The notes below the pieces were generated by a model, which saw nothing but the letters and a program-made list of their open reading frames with translations, was not told where the DNA came from and ran no database searches. Shown here piece by piece: positions 27,986-35,259 of a DNA stretch of 64,000 bases. Both the position numbers and the translations under genes were made by a program. The stretch's first letter is position 1. Every line of letters begins with the position of its first letter. Source of the DNA: Sideroxyarcus sp. (GTDB lineage Bacteria > Pseudomonadota > Gammaproteobacteria > Burkholderiales > Gallionellaceae); NCBI GenBank assembly GCA_030651895.1, contig JAUSBR010000004.1, forward strand, positions 186,001-250,000, written 5' to 3'.

Positions 27986-28399
27986 TTATCTCTCCAGCGG
28001 CAGGCTGGCTTTTTGCCAGGCCATCACGCCGCCCTCCAGATTATAAGCCTGGGTGAACCCCTGTTTGCCCAGCTGCGCACAGGCGGATGCCGAACGCATC
28101 CCGCTGCGGCACACCACCAGGATGGGCTTGTCGCGGTACTTCTCCAGTTCGCCGATGCGCTCGCGCAGCTTGCCCAGCGGCACGAGCTTGCTGTTCAGGA
28201 TATGGCCAGAGTCGTATTCGCCCTGCTCGCGCACGTCCAGCACCAGCGCATTCTTGTGGTTGATGAGTTGGGTGGCAGCTATGTGGTCGACATCCTTGAT
28301 GCCGCGCAGGCGGTTGCCGAAGAATGACCAGAACAGCATGGCGCCGCTGGTCAGTGCGATCAGAATGGTCCAGATGTTATTTTGCAGGTACAGCAGCAC
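27986..28399 (-). CDS. Membrane-anchored rhodanese-like sulfurtransferase
   Basis: The 137-residue protein has one N-terminal membrane helix (NNIWTILIALTSGAMLFWSFF, about 7-28) and a rhodanese domain with the catalytic loop CRSGMRS (about 96-102), where Cys carries a persulfide. YibN-like proteins of this architecture stand next to grxC-secB in many proteobacteria. It may handle sulfane sulfur or protein thiols at the inner membrane. Its start overlaps the end of the PglL gene by 23 nt. Confidence 0.92.
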   Translation of the reverse strand: MLLYLQNNIWTILIALTSGAMLFWSFFGNRLRGIKDVDHIAATQLINHKNALVLDVREQGEYDSGHILNSKLVPLGKLRERIGELEKYRDKPILVVCRSGMRSASACAQLGKQGFTQAYNLEGGVMAWQKASLPLER

Positions 28400-30170
28400 G
28401 GCGATACTCCTCGTATTTTTGGGTGGCGAATTCTAACAGAGCGGAAAAGCGTGCGGGATCCTTGAGCGCCAACTCTTCAAGTTCAGCGCGGGCTTGCCCA
28501 AAGCTATCCGGGTAAGACCAGATCGCCCGCTCCATCTGCAACCGCGCTTCGTCCGGCAGATTCGAAAGTGCCAGCAGGGATGCCTGACGATAAACCACCG
28601 GGGCAATCGGAATGAAACGCAGCGCACGCTCATTGAGATCGAGCTTGGCCTTCAAGTGATCTTCACTAGGCTCCAACGTGCTGGCAATGAACAGTTCGGC
28701 ATAGGAACCCAGCAGAGCACTACGCTGGACCGCCAGCAGTTCTTGTTTAATCTGCGGTAAAAGATTGGGGGTTTTCTCCGCCTTGCCGCGTAGCGCCAAA
28801 GCGTTCTCCAGACGATGATATCCCTGATAGATCTGCACCAGCGACAGCGCTCCCAGCAGCAGCATCATGGCAACGGATATTCGCCCCAGCATGCGCAGCT
28901 CCAACCGGTATGTAGTGACATCGAAGATGCCCAACATGATCGCCGCCACTCCGATGAAGTACATATACCAGAACGGGTATTCGAGCAGGCTGTGGATGCC
29001 CAGTACCGCCAGCACCGCGTAGCCCCACCAGTGGTAAAGGGAAAATTGAACACCACGCATGACCGATTGCCAGAACCACAACCCTGCGGTAGCAAACAGA
29101 ATAGCGACCCCGGCAAGCCCGCCCTCTGCCGCGATCTGCATCACCAAGTTGTGCGCGTTGTTATACAGCCCGGCGATGGCCGGATTGCGCAGCTCGGATG
29201 AGAGAAGAAAATGCTGGTACGCAAACTGGCCAAAGCCTGCGCCCATCAGGGGATACTGGAAGAAGATCAGCGCCCCTTCTTTCCAAAGATGGACTCGTAT
29301 CAATCCGCCGGCACTTTCGCCCAGCAATCTTTCCATCGTGGTGACACTGCCGGTGACCCCTTCCAACCAGGGTATCTGCACCACCAGATGCATCAGGCCG
29401 AATCCCGCCACCAAAATCAGGCTGTAATGCATCAATGGCCGCAATGCGCGGTCGCGACGCTGCCATATAAAGGCCAGAGCCAGAGCAAACAGCAGATAGA
29501 GCCAGGAGCTGCGTGAACCGGACAGCACCAGCACAAACAGTAGCGGGCTTGCCAGCAGGACGACCTGCCAAACGCGCAGACCGAAACGCGCATACACGAG
29601 CCCCAATGAGATAAGTCCCAGCGCAATGTGATCGGCAAAATGATTCGCTTGCGCCGTATTGCCATAGACAGCGTGCGACGTTTTCGCGGTGATGACTGAA
29701 TTCAGGAAAGTATTCCAGCGGTAATGCTGCAGAATGCCGGCCAGTGAATTCAACTCTGCGCCGAACAGCAGGAAGAACGCCAACACTGTCACCAACATCG
29801 GCAAGCCGAGTTCTGCCCGCAGGCGCTGCCCCAGCATCATCAGCAGCGCTGCAAAAAGAAAATACAAGCCCATCATCATCAGATGATCGAAGTGAATGAC
29901 GCGCCCGAGGAAGAACTGGACCATCAGCAGCAGCATCAATCCGATGGGCAACATGACGATGCGCGGCACCTCCGGCGCCTGCCAGTAGCGTGCCGTCAGC
30001 AGCAAAGGCATGGCGCACAAGCCGAGCAGGGCCGCGCCAGTCTCCTGGTAAAACGTGGTGATGGGATAGGCGTGGTGGTAGTACAGAAAAGGCAAAACCC
30101 ACATCAGGCCGACGAAGGCCAAACTGATGTGGGCAAGTTTTACCGGAAAGGGGAACGGGCTTTTTAGCAA
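28377..30170 (-). CDS. PglL/TfpO-type O-oligosaccharyltransferase
   Basis: The 597-residue multi-spanning protein has about 12 hydrophobic helices, the Wzy_C/PglL periplasmic-loop motif YNNAHNLVMQIAAEGG (about 350-365, with the essential His), and HSLLEYPFWYMYF (about 400-412), the hallmark that separates PglL from O-antigen ligase. A C-terminal soluble tail follows (about 450-597). These enzymes move lipid-linked glycan onto Ser/Thr of pilins and other exported proteins. With the MSHA locus 2.5 kb away, pilin is a likely acceptor, but general O-glycosylation is equally possible. No glycan assembly genes lie beside it. Confidence 0.88.
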   Translation of the reverse strand: MLKSPFPFPVKLAHISLAFVGLMWVLPFLYYHHAYPITTFYQETGAALLGLCAMPLLLTARYWQAPEVPRIVMLPIGLMLLLMVQFFLGRVIHFDHLMMMGLYFLFAALLMMLGQRLRAELGLPMLVTVLAFFLLFGAELNSLAGILQHYRWNTFLNSVITAKTSHAVYGNTAQANHFADHIALGLISLGLVYARFGLRVWQVVLLASPLLFVLVLSGSRSSWLYLLFALALAFIWQRRDRALRPLMHYSLILVAGFGLMHLVVQIPWLEGVTGSVTTMERLLGESAGGLIRVHLWKEGALIFFQYPLMGAGFGQFAYQHFLLSSELRNPAIAGLYNNAHNLVMQIAAEGGLAGVAILFATAGLWFWQSVMRGVQFSLYHWWGYAVLAVLGIHSLLEYPFWYMYFIGVAAIMLGIFDVTTYRLELRMLGRISVAMMLLLGALSLVQIYQGYHRLENALALRGKAEKTPNLLPQIKQELLAVQRSALLGSYAELFIASTLEPSEDHLKAKLDLNERALRFIPIAPVVYRQASLLALSNLPDEARLQMERAIWSYPDSFGQARAELEELALKDPARFSALLEFATQKYEEYRRAAVPAK

Positions 30171-30373
30171 CTGCCTTTGATGCCAAACTTGGCGAGGATG
30201 CTATTCAGCGGGCATATCTGGGTGAAGCCGCTCTGGAACAGGTTCAGGCCGACGAAAGCGGTGAAGAACAGGAAGTACTCGCTGACGAACAGCGGGCTGG
30301 CCTGCACGCCCAGCGACAGGGACAGCAGGATGAAGAAACCTGCAACGATACGGACGATACGTTCTGCGTTCAT
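30164..30373 (-). CDS. DUF2892 (YgaP-like transmembrane) small membrane protein
   Basis: The real start is ATG 30373 (MNAERIVRIVAGFFILLSLSLG), preceded by AAGGAG; the longer track ORF begins upstream of a palindrome. The 69-residue protein has two transmembrane helices and ends GFTQICPLNSILAKFGIKGSC, matching the DUF2892/YgaP_TM domain, which in E. coli YgaP is fused to a rhodanese. Cys residues sit at ICPL and at the C-terminus. It follows the RND pump genes and may handle sulfane sulfur or be part of the same sulfide response. Confidence 0.85.
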   Translation of the reverse strand: MNAERIVRIVAGFFILLSLSLGVQASPLFVSEYFLFFTAFVGLNLFQSGFTQICPLNSILAKFGIKGSC

Positions 30374-30467: not shown

Positions 30468-33400
30468 CTAATCGAATTTCTTGTACAACGTTGCGTAATA
30501 CAGCACCGGGATGACAATCAGCGTCAGCAGGGTGGAGACGAGGATGCCGAATATCAGCGCCAGCGCCAGGCCGTTGAAGATCGGGTCGTCGAGGATGAAC
30601 AGCGCCCCCAGCATCGCCGCCAGACCGGTCAAAATGATCGGTTTCGCACGCGCCGCCGCCGCGTTCACCACCGCATGCTGCAGGTCCACCCCGTCGCGCA
30701 ACTGCAGGTTGACGAAGTCCACCAGCAGGATGGAGTTGCGCACGATGATGCCCGCCAGCGCGATCATGCCGATCATCGACGTCGCGGTGAACTGCGCGCC
30801 GAACAGGGCATGCCCCGGCATCACGCCAATGATGGTAAGCGGGATGGGAGCCATGATCACCAGCGGCACGACATAGCTCTTGAACTGCGCCACCACCAGC
30901 AGATAGATCAGGATCAGGCCCACGCCGTAGGCGATGCCCATGTCGCGGAAGGTCTCGAAGGTCACCTGCCACTCGCCGTCCCACTTCAATGCGTAACCCG
31001 CATAGGGATCGGAGGGTTGGTGGAAGAACCATGACTCCAGCGTGCCGCCCTGCTCCAGTTCCATATCACCGGTCTTGCCGTTGATGTCGAACATGCCGTA
31101 CAGGGGGCTGTCCAGATCGCCGGCCATGTCGCCGGTCACATACACCACCGGCAGCAGGTCCTTGTGATAGATCGGGTAGTCGCGCTGTGTGTGCACCGCC
31201 TGCACCACTTCCGACAGCGGCACCAGCGCACCGTCCCGTGAGCGCACCTTGAGCTTCAGCACATCATCGATGCGGCTGCGCTTTTCCGCCGGCAGGCCGA
31301 GACGCAGGGGCGGCGCATATTTCGCGTCCAGATCGTGCAGGGCCGTCACATCCTGGCCGGACAACGCGATCTGCACCGCATCCACGATGTCGCTCTGTGC
31401 TACACCGAGCAGGGCGGCCTTGCTTTGCATCACGCGCAGCACCAACTTGGGCGCGGCTTCGCTCACCGTGTCGTCGATCCCAACGATGTCGGCGGTGGCA
31501 AAGAACTGCTCGCGCACTTTGCCCGCCACCTGGCGTGCGCCGTTGTAATCCGGCCCGTAGATCTCGGCCACGATAGGCGACATCACCGGAGGGCCCGGCG
31601 GTACCTCGACTACTTTCACTTTCGCGCCCCACACCTTGGCGATCTTTTCGATCGGCTCGCGCACCGAAGTGGCGATCTCGTGGCTGCTGCGGTCGCGATT
31701 GTGCTTGCCCTGCAGATTGACCTGGATGTCGCCCTGCTCCGGCGCGCTGCGCAGATAGTACTGGCGCACCAGACCGTTGAAGTTGATCGGCGAGGCCGTC
31801 CCTGCGTAGGCCTCGTAATCGGTCACTTCCGGCACGGTCGCCAGATAGGCGCCGATCTCGCGCATCACGCCGGCAGTCTGCTCCACCGCCGTACCGCTGG
31901 GCATGTCGACGACCACCTGGAACTCCGACTTGTTGTCGAACGGCAGCATCTTCAGCACCACCAGCTTGACCAGCGTCAGCGACACCGCGATCAGCAGCGC
32001 CCCCAGTATGCCCAGCCACAGCTTTCGCCGCATCTGCTTGCCGTGTTCCTTGTTCAGGAAAGGATACAGACGGGCGCGGAAGAACTTGGCGATCTTTGTA
32101 TCGTTCTCGTCCTTCACCACCGCATGGTGCGGCGCGGCCAGCTTGTGTGCCAGCCAGGGCGTGACGATGAAGGCGATGGCCAGCGAGATCAGCATGCCCA
32201 TACTGGCGTTGATCGGGATCGGGCTCATGTACGGCCCCATCAATCCGCTCACAAAGGCCATCGGTAGCAGCGCCGCAATCACCGTAAAAGTAGCGAGAAT
32301 GGTCGGGCTGCCGACCTCGTCCACCGCCTCGGGAATGATCTCCGACAGCGGCTGATGCTGCGACAGCTCGCGGCGGCGGTGGATGTTCTCCACCACCACG
32401 ATGGCATCGTCCACCAGGATACCGATGGAGAAAATCAGCGCGAACAGCGATACGCGGTTGAGCGTGAAGCCGTATGCCCAGGAAGCGAACAGCGTCACCG
32501 CCAGCGTCAACAGCACCGCGATGCCGACGATGACCGCCTCGCGCCGGCCCAGCGCGAACCACACCAGCGCGACCACGGCGAAGGTAGCGAAGAACAGTTT
32601 CTGGATCAGCTTCATCGCTTTGTCGTTGGCGGTCTCGCCGTAGTTGCGCGTGATGGTCACCTGCACATCATCGGGGATCACGCTGCCTTTGAGCTCGTCC
32701 ACACGCTGCAGCAACTTGTTGGCGACATCCACCGCGTTCTCGCCCGGCTTCTTGGTCACGGCCAGCGTCACCGCGCCGAATTCACCGCGGGCTTCGATGG
32801 CTTTGTCGCCTGCCGCGGCGCCCGTCCCCATCCACACATAGCTCTTGGGCTGGTCGGCACTGTCCAGCACCTCGGCCACATCGCGCAGGAACACCGGCTT
32901 GCCGTCGGAGACACCCACCACCAGTTGGCTGACCTCGCTGGCATCGCTGAGGAACATGCCGGTCTGCACCAGCACCTCGCGGTTGTTCTGCACCAGTGTA
33001 CCGGCGCTGTGCGAGACATTCGATGCCTGCAGCGCGTAGCGCACTTCCTGCACCGACAACTGGTGCGCGTTCAGCGCTTCCGGATCGAGCAGCACACGAA
33101 CCACACGCGGCGTCGCACCCAGCGTGCTCACTTCGCGCGTACCCTGCACGCGTTTCAATTCCGCCTCGATGGCGTGGGCGACCTGGGTCAGCTCCACCGC
33201 CCCGCTGTCCGGCCGGTCGCGCCACAGCGTCAGGCCCAGCACCGGCACATCGTCGATGCCCTTGGCCTTGATGATAGGTTGCATGACGCCCAGCGTGCTC
33301 GGCAGCCAGTCGGCGTGCGACCAGATGACGTCGTAAAGTTTGACCAGCGAAGGCACATGCAACTCGCCGACCTTGAACTGGATGGTGAGCACGGCCATGC

Positions 33401-33674
33401 CGGGTTGCGACACGGAATAGACGTGATCGACACCGGCGATCTGCGACAGCACCTGCTCGGCGGGCGTCGCCACCGTGTTCGCCACGTCCTGCGCCGAGGC
33501 GCCCGGATAGGCGATCAGCACATTGGCCATCGTGACGTTGATCTGCGGTTCTTCCTCGCGCGGGGTCACGACGACCGCAAAGATACCCAGCAGCATGGCG
33601 ACCAGCGCCAGCAGCGGCGTCATCTGCGAATGCAGGAAGACGCGGGCGATACGCCCCGAGATACCCATGCTCAT
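30468..33674 (-). CDS. RND efflux permease (AcrB superfamily)
   Basis: The 1068-residue permease has 12 predicted transmembrane helices in the AcrB arrangement with two large periplasmic loops. The TM4 proton-relay segment reads FSIGILVDDAIVVVENIHRR; the double Asp fits the HAE (drug/amphiphile) type rather than the heavy-metal type. The N-terminus PREEEPQINVTMANVLIAYPGAS and the internal repeat confirm COG0841. It works with the upstream adaptor (ATGA overlap at 33671-33674); no outer-membrane TolC-like gene is present. Its regulator resembles a persulfide sensor, so a sulfur-related substrate is possible. Confidence 0.93.
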   Translation of the reverse strand: MSMGISGRIARVFLHSQMTPLLALVAMLLGIFAVVVTPREEEPQINVTMANVLIAYPGASAQDVANTVATPAEQVLSQIAGVDHVYSVSQPGMAVLTIQFKVGELHVPSLVKLYDVIWSHADWLPSTLGVMQPIIKAKGIDDVPVLGLTLWRDRPDSGAVELTQVAHAIEAELKRVQGTREVSTLGATPRVVRVLLDPEALNAHQLSVQEVRYALQASNVSHSAGTLVQNNREVLVQTGMFLSDASEVSQLVVGVSDGKPVFLRDVAEVLDSADQPKSYVWMGTGAAAGDKAIEARGEFGAVTLAVTKKPGENAVDVANKLLQRVDELKGSVIPDDVQVTITRNYGETANDKAMKLIQKLFFATFAVVALVWFALGRREAVIVGIAVLLTLAVTLFASWAYGFTLNRVSLFALIFSIGILVDDAIVVVENIHRRRELSQHQPLSEIIPEAVDEVGSPTILATFTVIAALLPMAFVSGLMGPYMSPIPINASMGMLISLAIAFIVTPWLAHKLAAPHHAVVKDENDTKIAKFFRARLYPFLNKEHGKQMRRKLWLGILGALLIAVSLTLVKLVVLKMLPFDNKSEFQVVVDMPSGTAVEQTAGVMREIGAYLATVPEVTDYEAYAGTASPINFNGLVRQYYLRSAPEQGDIQVNLQGKHNRDRSSHEIATSVREPIEKIAKVWGAKVKVVEVPPGPPVMSPIVAEIYGPDYNGARQVAGKVREQFFATADIVGIDDTVSEAAPKLVLRVMQSKAALLGVAQSDIVDAVQIALSGQDVTALHDLDAKYAPPLRLGLPAEKRSRIDDVLKLKVRSRDGALVPLSEVVQAVHTQRDYPIYHKDLLPVVYVTGDMAGDLDSPLYGMFDINGKTGDMELEQGGTLESWFFHQPSDPYAGYALKWDGEWQVTFETFRDMGIAYGVGLILIYLLVVAQFKSYVVPLVIMAPIPLTIIGVMPGHALFGAQFTATSMIGMIALAGIIVRNSILLVDFVNLQLRDGVDLQHAVVNAAAARAKPIILTGLAAMLGALFILDDPIFNGLALALIFGILVSTLLTLIVIPVLYYATLYKKFD

Positions 33675-34708
33675 CGCTTGCTCTCCGCCGCGACCATGCC
33701 GGCTTTGACCGCTTCACGCGCGACCTGCTCGCCGACGTTCAGCCCGGCCAGCACCTCGATCTCGTTCTGCGCATTCGCCTCGCCCAGACGCACCTGGCGC
33801 AGGCGCGGCATCCCCTTGTCATCCACCACATATACCGCCACCACTTCGCTGCGGCGCACTACCGAGCTCACAGGAATCAGCATCTTGTTCTCCTTGCCCA
33901 CCACGAAATGCGTGCGCACGAACATGCCGGGGTAGAGGTTGGCCTGATTGGCGGGCAGATCGACGCGCACCTGGGTGCTGTGCGTGCGCGCATCGGCCGA
34001 CGGCTGCACCGTGACGGTGGCTGACTTGATCCAGCGCGACAGCGACGGGACTTCCACCATCACACTGGGGCGAGCACCGATCTCTTTCAGTTTGTGTTGC
34101 GGCACGTTAGCGATCACGCGCAGTTGCGAGGGATCGAAACCGGTCATCAGCGGCTTGCCCACCGTAACCATCTCGCCCATCTCCACCATGCGCGCAGACA
34201 CCACACCGCCGTAGGGGGCGATCACCGAGGTGTAGCTTTGCGACAGTGCCGATTGCTGCGCACCCGCCTCGCTGGCATCGGCCTGGGCCTTGGCCATCTC
34301 GAAATCGGACTTGGCCTTGTCCAGCGCGGCCTGACTGATGAACTTCTGTTCGAACAACTGTTGGGAGCGTTCGTAGTTCAAGCGTGCGTTCTGCAATGCG
34401 GCCTGCGCCTGCGACAGTTGCGCCCGGCTGCCCGCCAGCGCCTGGTCGGCCTCGCGTTCGTCGATCTTGAGGATGACCTGGCCCTTGCTCACGCGGTCGC
34501 CCACGTCAAAAAACAGCGCCTTCACGCGACCGGATATCTGTGCCGACACGGTCGACTGGCGCGTTGCCTCGACCACCCCGTCCACACTGTAAGTCTGCTC
34601 CACCTCACGGTATTGCACAGCAGCCGTCGCCAACGGTTCAGCAACGGAAGAATTGGCCGCCAGCAGCACCGCGGAAAGACCCAACAACAAACCCGGTTTA
34701 AGTTTCAT
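33671..34708 (-). CDS. RND efflux periplasmic adaptor (membrane fusion protein)
   Basis: The start is best placed at ATG 34708 (MKLKPGLLLGLSAVLLAANSSVA), which gives a signal peptide after GAGGTCAGGCT; the track start at 34747 lies in the operator. The 345-residue protein has a barrel-sandwich domain (VSAQISGRVKALFFDVGDRVSKGQVILKID, about 50-80), an alpha-hairpin (about 90-150) and a beta-barrel/MP-proximal C-terminus. It links the permease to an outer-membrane factor encoded elsewhere. First gene of the pump unit after the operator. Confidence 0.92.
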   Translation of the reverse strand: MKLKPGLLLGLSAVLLAANSSVAEPLATAAVQYREVEQTYSVDGVVEATRQSTVSAQISGRVKALFFDVGDRVSKGQVILKIDEREADQALAGSRAQLSQAQAALQNARLNYERSQQLFEQKFISQAALDKAKSDFEMAKAQADASEAGAQQSALSQSYTSVIAPYGGVVSARMVEMGEMVTVGKPLMTGFDPSQLRVIANVPQHKLKEIGARPSVMVEVPSLSRWIKSATVTVQPSADARTHSTQVRVDLPANQANLYPGMFVRTHFVVGKENKMLIPVSSVVRRSEVVAVYVVDDKGMPRLRQVRLGEANAQNEIEVLAGLNVGEQVAREAVKAGMVAAESKR

Positions 34709-34735
34709 AGCCTGACCTCTGAAAATGATATGTTT

Positions 34736-34759
34736 GCATATTAGCATATTCTAATATGC
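34736..34759. promoter_or_regulatory. ArsR-family operator (GCATATTAG-6-CTAATATGC)
   Basis: Perfect 9+9 nt inverted repeat GCATATTAG / CTAATATGC separated by CATATT. AT-rich palindromes of this kind are bound by winged-helix ArsR proteins such as BigR. It overlaps the spacer and the -10 of the pump promoter candidate, so binding would block transcription. It lies 28 nt before the adaptor ATG and about 37 nt after the ArsR gene. Confidence 0.8.
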
Positions 34760-34766
34760 ATGCCAA
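34738..34766 (-). promoter_or_regulatory. Promoter candidate for the RND pump genes
   Basis: Minus-strand TTGGCA, 17 bases, TAATAT. The -35 matches five of six consensus bases and the -10 four of six. The spacer and -10 are occupied by the inverted repeat described above, the usual arrangement for ArsR repression. Transcription would begin near 34731. Confidence 0.55.
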
Positions 34767-34770
34767 TCCA

Positions 34771-34794
34771 CCCCGCGCCGGGCGGGCGCCGGGG
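34771..34794 (-). terminator. GC-rich hairpin after the ArsR gene
   Basis: CCCC-GCGCC pairs with GGCGC-(C)-GGGG around a 5-nt loop directly after the ArsR stop codon. It has no T-tract, so it is an incomplete intrinsic terminator, but it separates the regulator from the pump promoter. Confidence 0.4.
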
Positions 34795-34795
34795 C

Positions 34796-35098
34796 CTAGA
34801 TAGTGCAGAACACGTCGCGCATCATCCCCACCAGCTTGAGGGTGCGCGGGTCGCCGATACGGTAATAGACGCGGTTGGCATCCTTGCGGGTGGACAATAC
34901 GCCCTTGTCGCGCAGGATGGCGAGATGCTGGGAGATATTGCTCTGGGAAGTGCCGACATTGTCGACGATGTCCTGCACGCTCAGCTCGTTGTCCGCAAGC
35001 ACGCACAGGATCTTGAGCCGCAGCGGGTGGGCGATGGCTTTCATCGCCAGCGAGGCCTGCAGGATGTCTTCGTCTTTGTCGATCAGCTTCTTGCTCAT
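34796..35098 (-). CDS. ArsR-family repressor with SqrR/BigR-type cysteine pair
   Basis: Start at ATG 35098 (MSKKLIDKDEDIL), with AGG six bases upstream; the GTG at 35104 in the track is less likely. The 100-residue winged-helix protein has the recognition helix SQSNISQHLAILRDKG (about 51-66) and wing TRKDANRVYYRI. It lacks the metal-binding CVC motif of ArsR. Instead Cys32 (KILCVLAD) and Cys98 (DVFCTI) are 66 residues apart, the same spacing as Cys41/Cys107 in SqrR and Cys42/Cys108 in BigR, where they form a tetrasulfide on sensing persulfide. It probably represses the pump genes through the operator at 34736-34759. Substrate class is inference; DNA-binding fold is certain. Confidence 0.88.
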   Translation of the reverse strand: MSKKLIDKDEDILQASLAMKAIAHPLRLKILCVLADNELSVQDIVDNVGTSQSNISQHLAILRDKGVLSTRKDANRVYYRIGDPRTLKLVGMMRDVFCTI

Positions 35099-35259
35099 AT
35101 TCACCTGCCATGGATTAAGGAAGTAGGGGCATAGATGGCCCGAAATCGGCTAAAATTCGTGCCTCAGGCGGTCTTCTCTGTCCCGCCACGCTATTTTGAC
35201 GCATCGCACTAAATTAGCAACTGCTTATATTTTGATATTTCGGTGAAAAAAAAGCCAGC

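Follow-up and report, generated by a model that had tools for sequence, protein, structure and literature searches.

A two-cysteine ArsR-family protein and a conserved operator predict a regulon joining an RND efflux pump to sulfur-transfer and thiol-redox genes in Gallionellaceae

One conserved 16-base site appears to place an efflux pump, rhodaneses and a thioredoxin of iron- and sulfur-oxidizing Gallionella-type bacteria under the control of a small repressor. Our reading, to which we give a probability of roughly 0.7, is that this protein is an ArsR-family repressor of the HlyU/SqrR/BigR type, and that sulfane sulfur would derepress a regulon for sulfur stress, a complete TolC-MFP-RND pump among its members. 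If so, pumping is part of the defence against sulfur stress, and a complete tripartite pump takes its place inside the sulfur-stress response of sulfur- and iron-oxidizing bacteria, under a regulator class so far studied mostly for sulfide oxidation enzymes. What began as a guess from one Cys pair thereby becomes the prediction of a regulon for which the operator is defined and at least five target units can be listed. The relevant features of the window, by which we mean the whole stretch of 64,000 nucleotides that was analysed, are as follows.

34796 to 35098, minus strand: arsR, putative ArsR-family repressor of 100 amino acids, ATG at 35098, recognition helix SQSNISQHLAILR
34735 to 34760, no strand assigned: predicted operator O1, TGCATATTAG-N6-CTAATATGCA, with the core ATTAG-N6-CTAAT at 34740-34755, overlapping the predicted pump -10
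34738 to 34766, minus strand: predicted sigma70 promoter of the pump genes, TTGGCA-17-TAATAT, a consensus match only
35213 to 35228, minus strand: candidate operator O2, ATAAG-N6-CTAAT, one mismatch, between gpmI and arsR
33671 to 34708, minus strand: periplasmic adaptor (MFP/HlyD family) of the RND pump, ATG at 34708
30468 to 33674, minus strand: RND permease (ACR_tran, HAE-type) of 1068 amino acids, overlapping the MFP stop
30164 to 30373, minus strand: YgaP-like transmembrane protein (PF11127) of 69 amino acids, the last gene after the RND gene
27986 to 28399, minus strand: membrane-anchored rhodanese, followed in relatives by grxC-secB-gpsA

The assignment of the regulator to a winged-helix ArsR family, made in the preliminary description, was borne out by two profiles, HTH_5 (55 bits against a cut-off of 22) and that of the metalloregulator subfamily (90 bits against 55), and by the match of its fold. 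Only one other protein in the source genome matches HTH_5, and more weakly. The best PDB matches found with phmmer include HlyU, BigR, SqrR, NolR and YgaV, with 31-39% identity to HlyU, BigR and SqrR in the printed alignments, and the AlphaFold2 model (pLDDT 88) retrieves HlyU first from the PDB, then NolR, SqrR, BigR and YgaV. The protein has exactly two Cys, C32 and C98, whose 66-residue separation had been likened to that of SqrR and BigR; both indeed fall without gaps on the sensing pairs of Xylella fastidiosa BigR and Rhodobacter capsulatus SqrR, as well as on the Cys pairs of Vibrio cholerae and V. vulnificus HlyU. The aligned Cys lie in alpha2 and alpha5; in the model, helices span residues 25-34 and 84-97, with C98 immediately past the latter. 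The BigR equivalog model NF040642 (NCBIfam) scores 77.4 bits, under its curated cut-off of 155. Among 110 loci from relatives (80 from genome contigs and 30 from searched genomes), a Cys occupies the C32 position in all 110 and the C98 position in 109, the exception (L084) being an alignment that ended before that residue. Taken together, the sequence and model comparisons support placing the protein with the two-Cys group that responds to sulfane sulfur (SqrR/BigR/HlyU/YgaV). In the characterised proteins that share this Cys geometry, persulfides produce an intramolecular polysulfide bridge and DNA affinity is lost, while H2O2 and disulfides have no effect (PMC10509353, PMC12423496).

A perfect 9+9 palindrome over the pump -10, GCATATTAG-N6-CTAATATGC at 34736-34759, had been reported earlier. 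It is present and does lie over the predicted -10, with perfect arms that are in fact 10+10 (34735-34760). Its single occurrence in the window compares with none expected from shuffles, and when the intergenic region is shuffled an arm of at least 10 arises in 0.4% of cases. The promoter that it overlaps, running from 34766 to 34738, is the sole promoter-like match in that region. Because arsR precedes the pump genes on the minus strand, the palindrome, correctly placed at the pump promoter, is to be described as sitting between arsR and these genes; the divergent neighbour of arsR is gpmI. The single site first noted is also joined by O2, a second and weaker one upstream of arsR. One-mismatch sites show no enrichment in the source genome (13 versus 13 for the control), for which reason the counts take in only sites that are perfect or conserved in evolution, and the support for O2 comes from its position, conserved in many relatives, which suggests autoregulation of arsR.

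At the pump and rhodanese promoters and, as judged by eye, at those of the TolC, TrxC and Cys-rich protein genes described below, the operator can be fitted over a -10-like element. Its position over such elements in the cases checked fits repression by occlusion. This bears on the view that the protein is a NolR-like or HlyU-like regulator independent of any signal, or an activator or anti-silencer, in which the Cys are structural. Its closest structures are those of HlyU, an activator, and NolR, and the O1 half-site agrees with the NolR consensus (A/T)TTAG-N9-A(T/A). However, overlap with promoter elements is what a repressor would be expected to show, and both Cys are strictly conserved among the homologues while other positions vary; we regard this view as the least probable of those considered here.

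The operator is conserved together with the pump. In most relatives arsR adjoins gpmI with the M23 and S41 peptidase genes next to it. Downstream of arsR comes, depending on the locus, a pump of the same type, its adaptor about 52-97% identical, a pump of a second type with a TolC of its own and a permease about 38% identical, or immediately the rhodanese-grxC-secB-gpsA group. In gammaproteobacterial relatives, the membrane-anchored rhodanese (27986-28399 in the window) immediately follows arsR. When the stretch upstream of the pump was compared in 67 non-identical relatives, 60 had ATTAG-N6-CTAAT with no more than one mismatch, and 47 of these had it perfectly, where Markov shuffles predict 0.6 and 0.02, respectively; 58 pump-upstream sites carry 33 distinct spacers. 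The site stays with the pump where a gene has been inserted (L012, L025, L102) and where the pump is 5 kb away from arsR (L022, L023, L031); in L008 it is found ahead of an adaptor gene whose start is broken. These comparisons support the palindrome as a predicted pump operator that is conserved phylogenetically. Pumps of two different types share this location and this operator, which suggests selection for efflux as such rather than for one particular pump. In one genome (L161, G016:C38, 3727-5800), a pump copy with its operator lies beside a 41-residue arsR relic, and the intact arsR of G016 is on a different contig.

Perfect sites extend beyond the window. The source genome has five, compared with none for the reversed control, each 14-32 nt from its gene:

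Site 1: upstream of the pump genes (MFP-RND-YgaP-TM), in the window
Site 2: upstream of two adjacent rhodanese genes
Site 3: upstream of a TolC-family outer-membrane channel gene
Site 4: upstream of a TrxC thioredoxin, two genes in tandem
Site 5: upstream of a C_GCAxxG_C_C redox protein gene

As this genome is 73% complete, the regulon may be incomplete, or other regulators may have been missed. Summed over 23 genomes of the genus, perfect sites number 94 versus 14 for the control. Forty-three of the 57 sites fetched from the genus precede one of five gene families (the adaptor included) or arsR, mostly by 13-34 nt, and the remainder is about the number that the control predicts. The rhodanese pair is a target in 11 genus genomes, TolC in 14, TrxC in six and the Cys-rich protein in seven. 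Genomes of Thiobacillus and Hydrogenophilus type have sites before a rhodanese (41-43% identity), the Cys-rich protein, and the pump or its TolC, and also before a peroxiredoxin-like gene, which we name from its sequence and not from a profile search. In the Sulfuriflexus-type gammaproteobacteria (G067, G070), sites lack clear shared targets and control counts are high; we therefore claim the regulon only for Gallionellaceae, with some targets in the Thiobacillus- and Hydrogenophilus-type genomes.

Several sites outside the main target families deserve mention in their own right. In two sulfur-oxidizer genomes (L231, G061:C6; L241, G065:C34), perfect sites lie 26-31 nt upstream of the peroxiredoxin-like gene. 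DUF302 (PF03625) genes follow perfect sites by 18-20 nt in two genomes (L177, G019:C39; L203, G009:C238) and are candidates for further regulon membership. Two more genomes (L240, G065:C19; L249, G068:C15) have perfect sites 32-46 nt before the gene of a membrane protein in which a Cys-rich stretch (HCVMCHSP or HCIACHNP) looks cytochrome-like. In a single case (L198, G016:C335, site 1127), a perfect operator-like sequence precedes, by at least about 107 nt, the gene of a putative SoxY-like protein.

The pump is of the HAE type: ACR_tran matches over the full permease length (486 bits), an MFP gene is adjacent, and a TolC gene with the same operator is found elsewhere in the genome. Because the pump operon in the window has no outer-membrane gene, that TolC completes the tripartite pump. 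Alignment with PDB chains shows that the permease retains the TM4 Asp-Asp pair and has Arg (IIVRNSILLVDF) in place of the TM10 Lys of the MexB-type chain (LSAKNAILIVEF). With an ArsR-family regulator, one might think of a sensor of a metal, metalloid or organometal acting through the two Cys, with the pump exporting that toxicant, and E. coli ygaVP was indeed found as a tributyltin-inducible operon (work cited in PMC9774250). Yet none of the known metal-site motifs is recognised in the protein, as the preliminary description had held; the permease, at 236.6 bits, is far under the curated cut-off of 701 for the heavy-metal RND model TIGR00914 (CusA/CzcA); and the genes behind the operator encode sulfur-transfer and thiol proteins and include none for metal resistance. 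Metal sensing was rejected as the main reading on these grounds of motif, permease score and target genes, and as an alternative we consider it very improbable.

The targets speak to the nature of the signal. Operators before two rhodaneses, TolC, TrxC and the Cys-rich redox protein are independent evidence for a sulfur or thiol signal, and the pump operon itself contains the YgaP-like gene, which is kept beside arsR or the pump in about 20 loci. The source genome has soxB, and dsrA scores above the cut-off in 24 of 34 genus genomes; by gene content, the lineage would be one that oxidizes sulfur compounds. A general thiol-redox or electrophile sensor has to be weighed here, in which a C32-C98 disulfide, formed with H2O2, disulfides or electrophiles, would free the DNA and the pump would export toxic organics. 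TrxC, the C_GCAxxG_C_C protein and, in other lineages, the peroxiredoxin-like gene are compatible with general thiol oxidation as the signal too, and this counts against our main reading. There is also a precedent in the ArsR protein RexT, which responds to H2O2 and regulates a thioredoxin (PMC8960804). RexT, however, has a vicinal pair, Cys40-Cys41, which is absent from the present protein with its two distant Cys, and characterised proteins whose Cys are arranged like C32 and C98 react with persulfides but are unreactive towards H2O2 and disulfides (PMC10509353). Together, the rhodaneses, TrxC and the YgaP-like gene are better explained by a sulfane-sulfur signal than by a metal or a peroxide, the two rhodaneses and the YgaP-like gene pointing to sulfane sulfur, and we hold the general thiol-redox sensor to be unlikely, if less so than a metal sensor. 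Also against the main reading are the sub-threshold BigR equivalog score and the perfect-site targets examined, which include neither a sulfide:quinone oxidoreductase nor a persulfide dioxygenase, targets of the SqrR and BigR regulons.

For sulfane-sulfur control, repression, the persulfide signal and the tetrasulfide chemistry are the steps that we infer. The reduced, dithiol ArsR dimer would bind the 16-bp ATTAG-N6-CTAAT overlapping the -10 region, and would thereby block transcription of a dispersed regulon comprising MFP-RND-YgaP-TM, the rhodanese pair, the TolC channel, the two tandem TrxC genes and the C_GCAxxG_C_C redox protein. A rise in sulfane sulfur (persulfide or polysulfide), such as sulfur oxidation might bring, may lead to a polysulfide bridge between C32 and C98 and so take the dimer off the DNA. 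The coordinated response would then combine sulfur transfer by rhodaneses, reduction of persulfides and disulfides by TrxC, and the TolC-MFP-RND pump. More speculatively, and with considerable doubt, the pump may be dedicated in sulfur oxidizers to exporting reactive sulfur, be it persulfidated thiols, polysulfide or precursors of elemental sulfur, and be co-induced with the rhodaneses and thioredoxin by a sulfane-sulfur sensor. If true, this would be an RND pump with sulfane sulfur as its physiological substrate, a new kind of substrate.

Among known systems, HlyU of V. cholerae and V. vulnificus is the best match in sequence and fold, with the same Cys pair and a near-identical recognition-helix motif, SQSxxSQHLxxLR, but it activates hemolysin transcription, while the protein described here apparently represses a regulon for sulfur stress and efflux. 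SqrR (Rhodobacter) and BigR (Xylella, Acinetobacter) share the Cys geometry and the ArsR fold, and the deduced SqrR operator, ATTC-N8-GAAT, is an inverted repeat with the same 16-bp span as the O1 core. They differ in controlling sulfide-oxidation genes, and the half-site here is ATTAG; the present protein is accordingly no SqrR in the strict sense, its site being ATTAG-N6-CTAAT, with sqr unseen at the perfect sites examined. In E. coli YgaV-YgaP, a two-Cys ArsR protein likewise stands beside rhodanese and YgaP-TM functions, and our pump operon ends in a YgaP-like protein. YgaP has both domains, rhodanese and TM, within one protein; here, in contrast, the YgaP-like TM protein is separate, the rhodaneses are elsewhere and an RND pump has been added.

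Sulfane sulfur also relieves the repression of multidrug efflux pumps by MexR (MexAB-OprM) and MarR, which belong to an unrelated regulator family, the MarR family, and for which the available part of that report describes no rhodanese/thioredoxin regulon (PMC11211675). A precedent is the survey of Li et al. 2025, in which gene neighbourhoods led to the view that two-Cys ArsR regulators appear to act on RND pump genes, among other targets, so that this linkage is not new (PMC12423496). Thus the preliminary idea of a persulfide-sensor-like ArsR controlling an RND pump gains from the two-Cys group and the conserved operator, and loses its premise that such regulators, known from SqrR and BigR to control sulfide oxidation, had no prior connection with RND pumps. 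The main text of Li et al., as far as available, is without an operator, regulon or Gallionellaceae analysis (PMC12423496). What is new, as far as the searched literature shows, is the predicted operator, the regulon and the joint control of pump, sulfur-transfer and thiol-redox genes, which we predict in Gallionellaceae and, in part, in related lineages.
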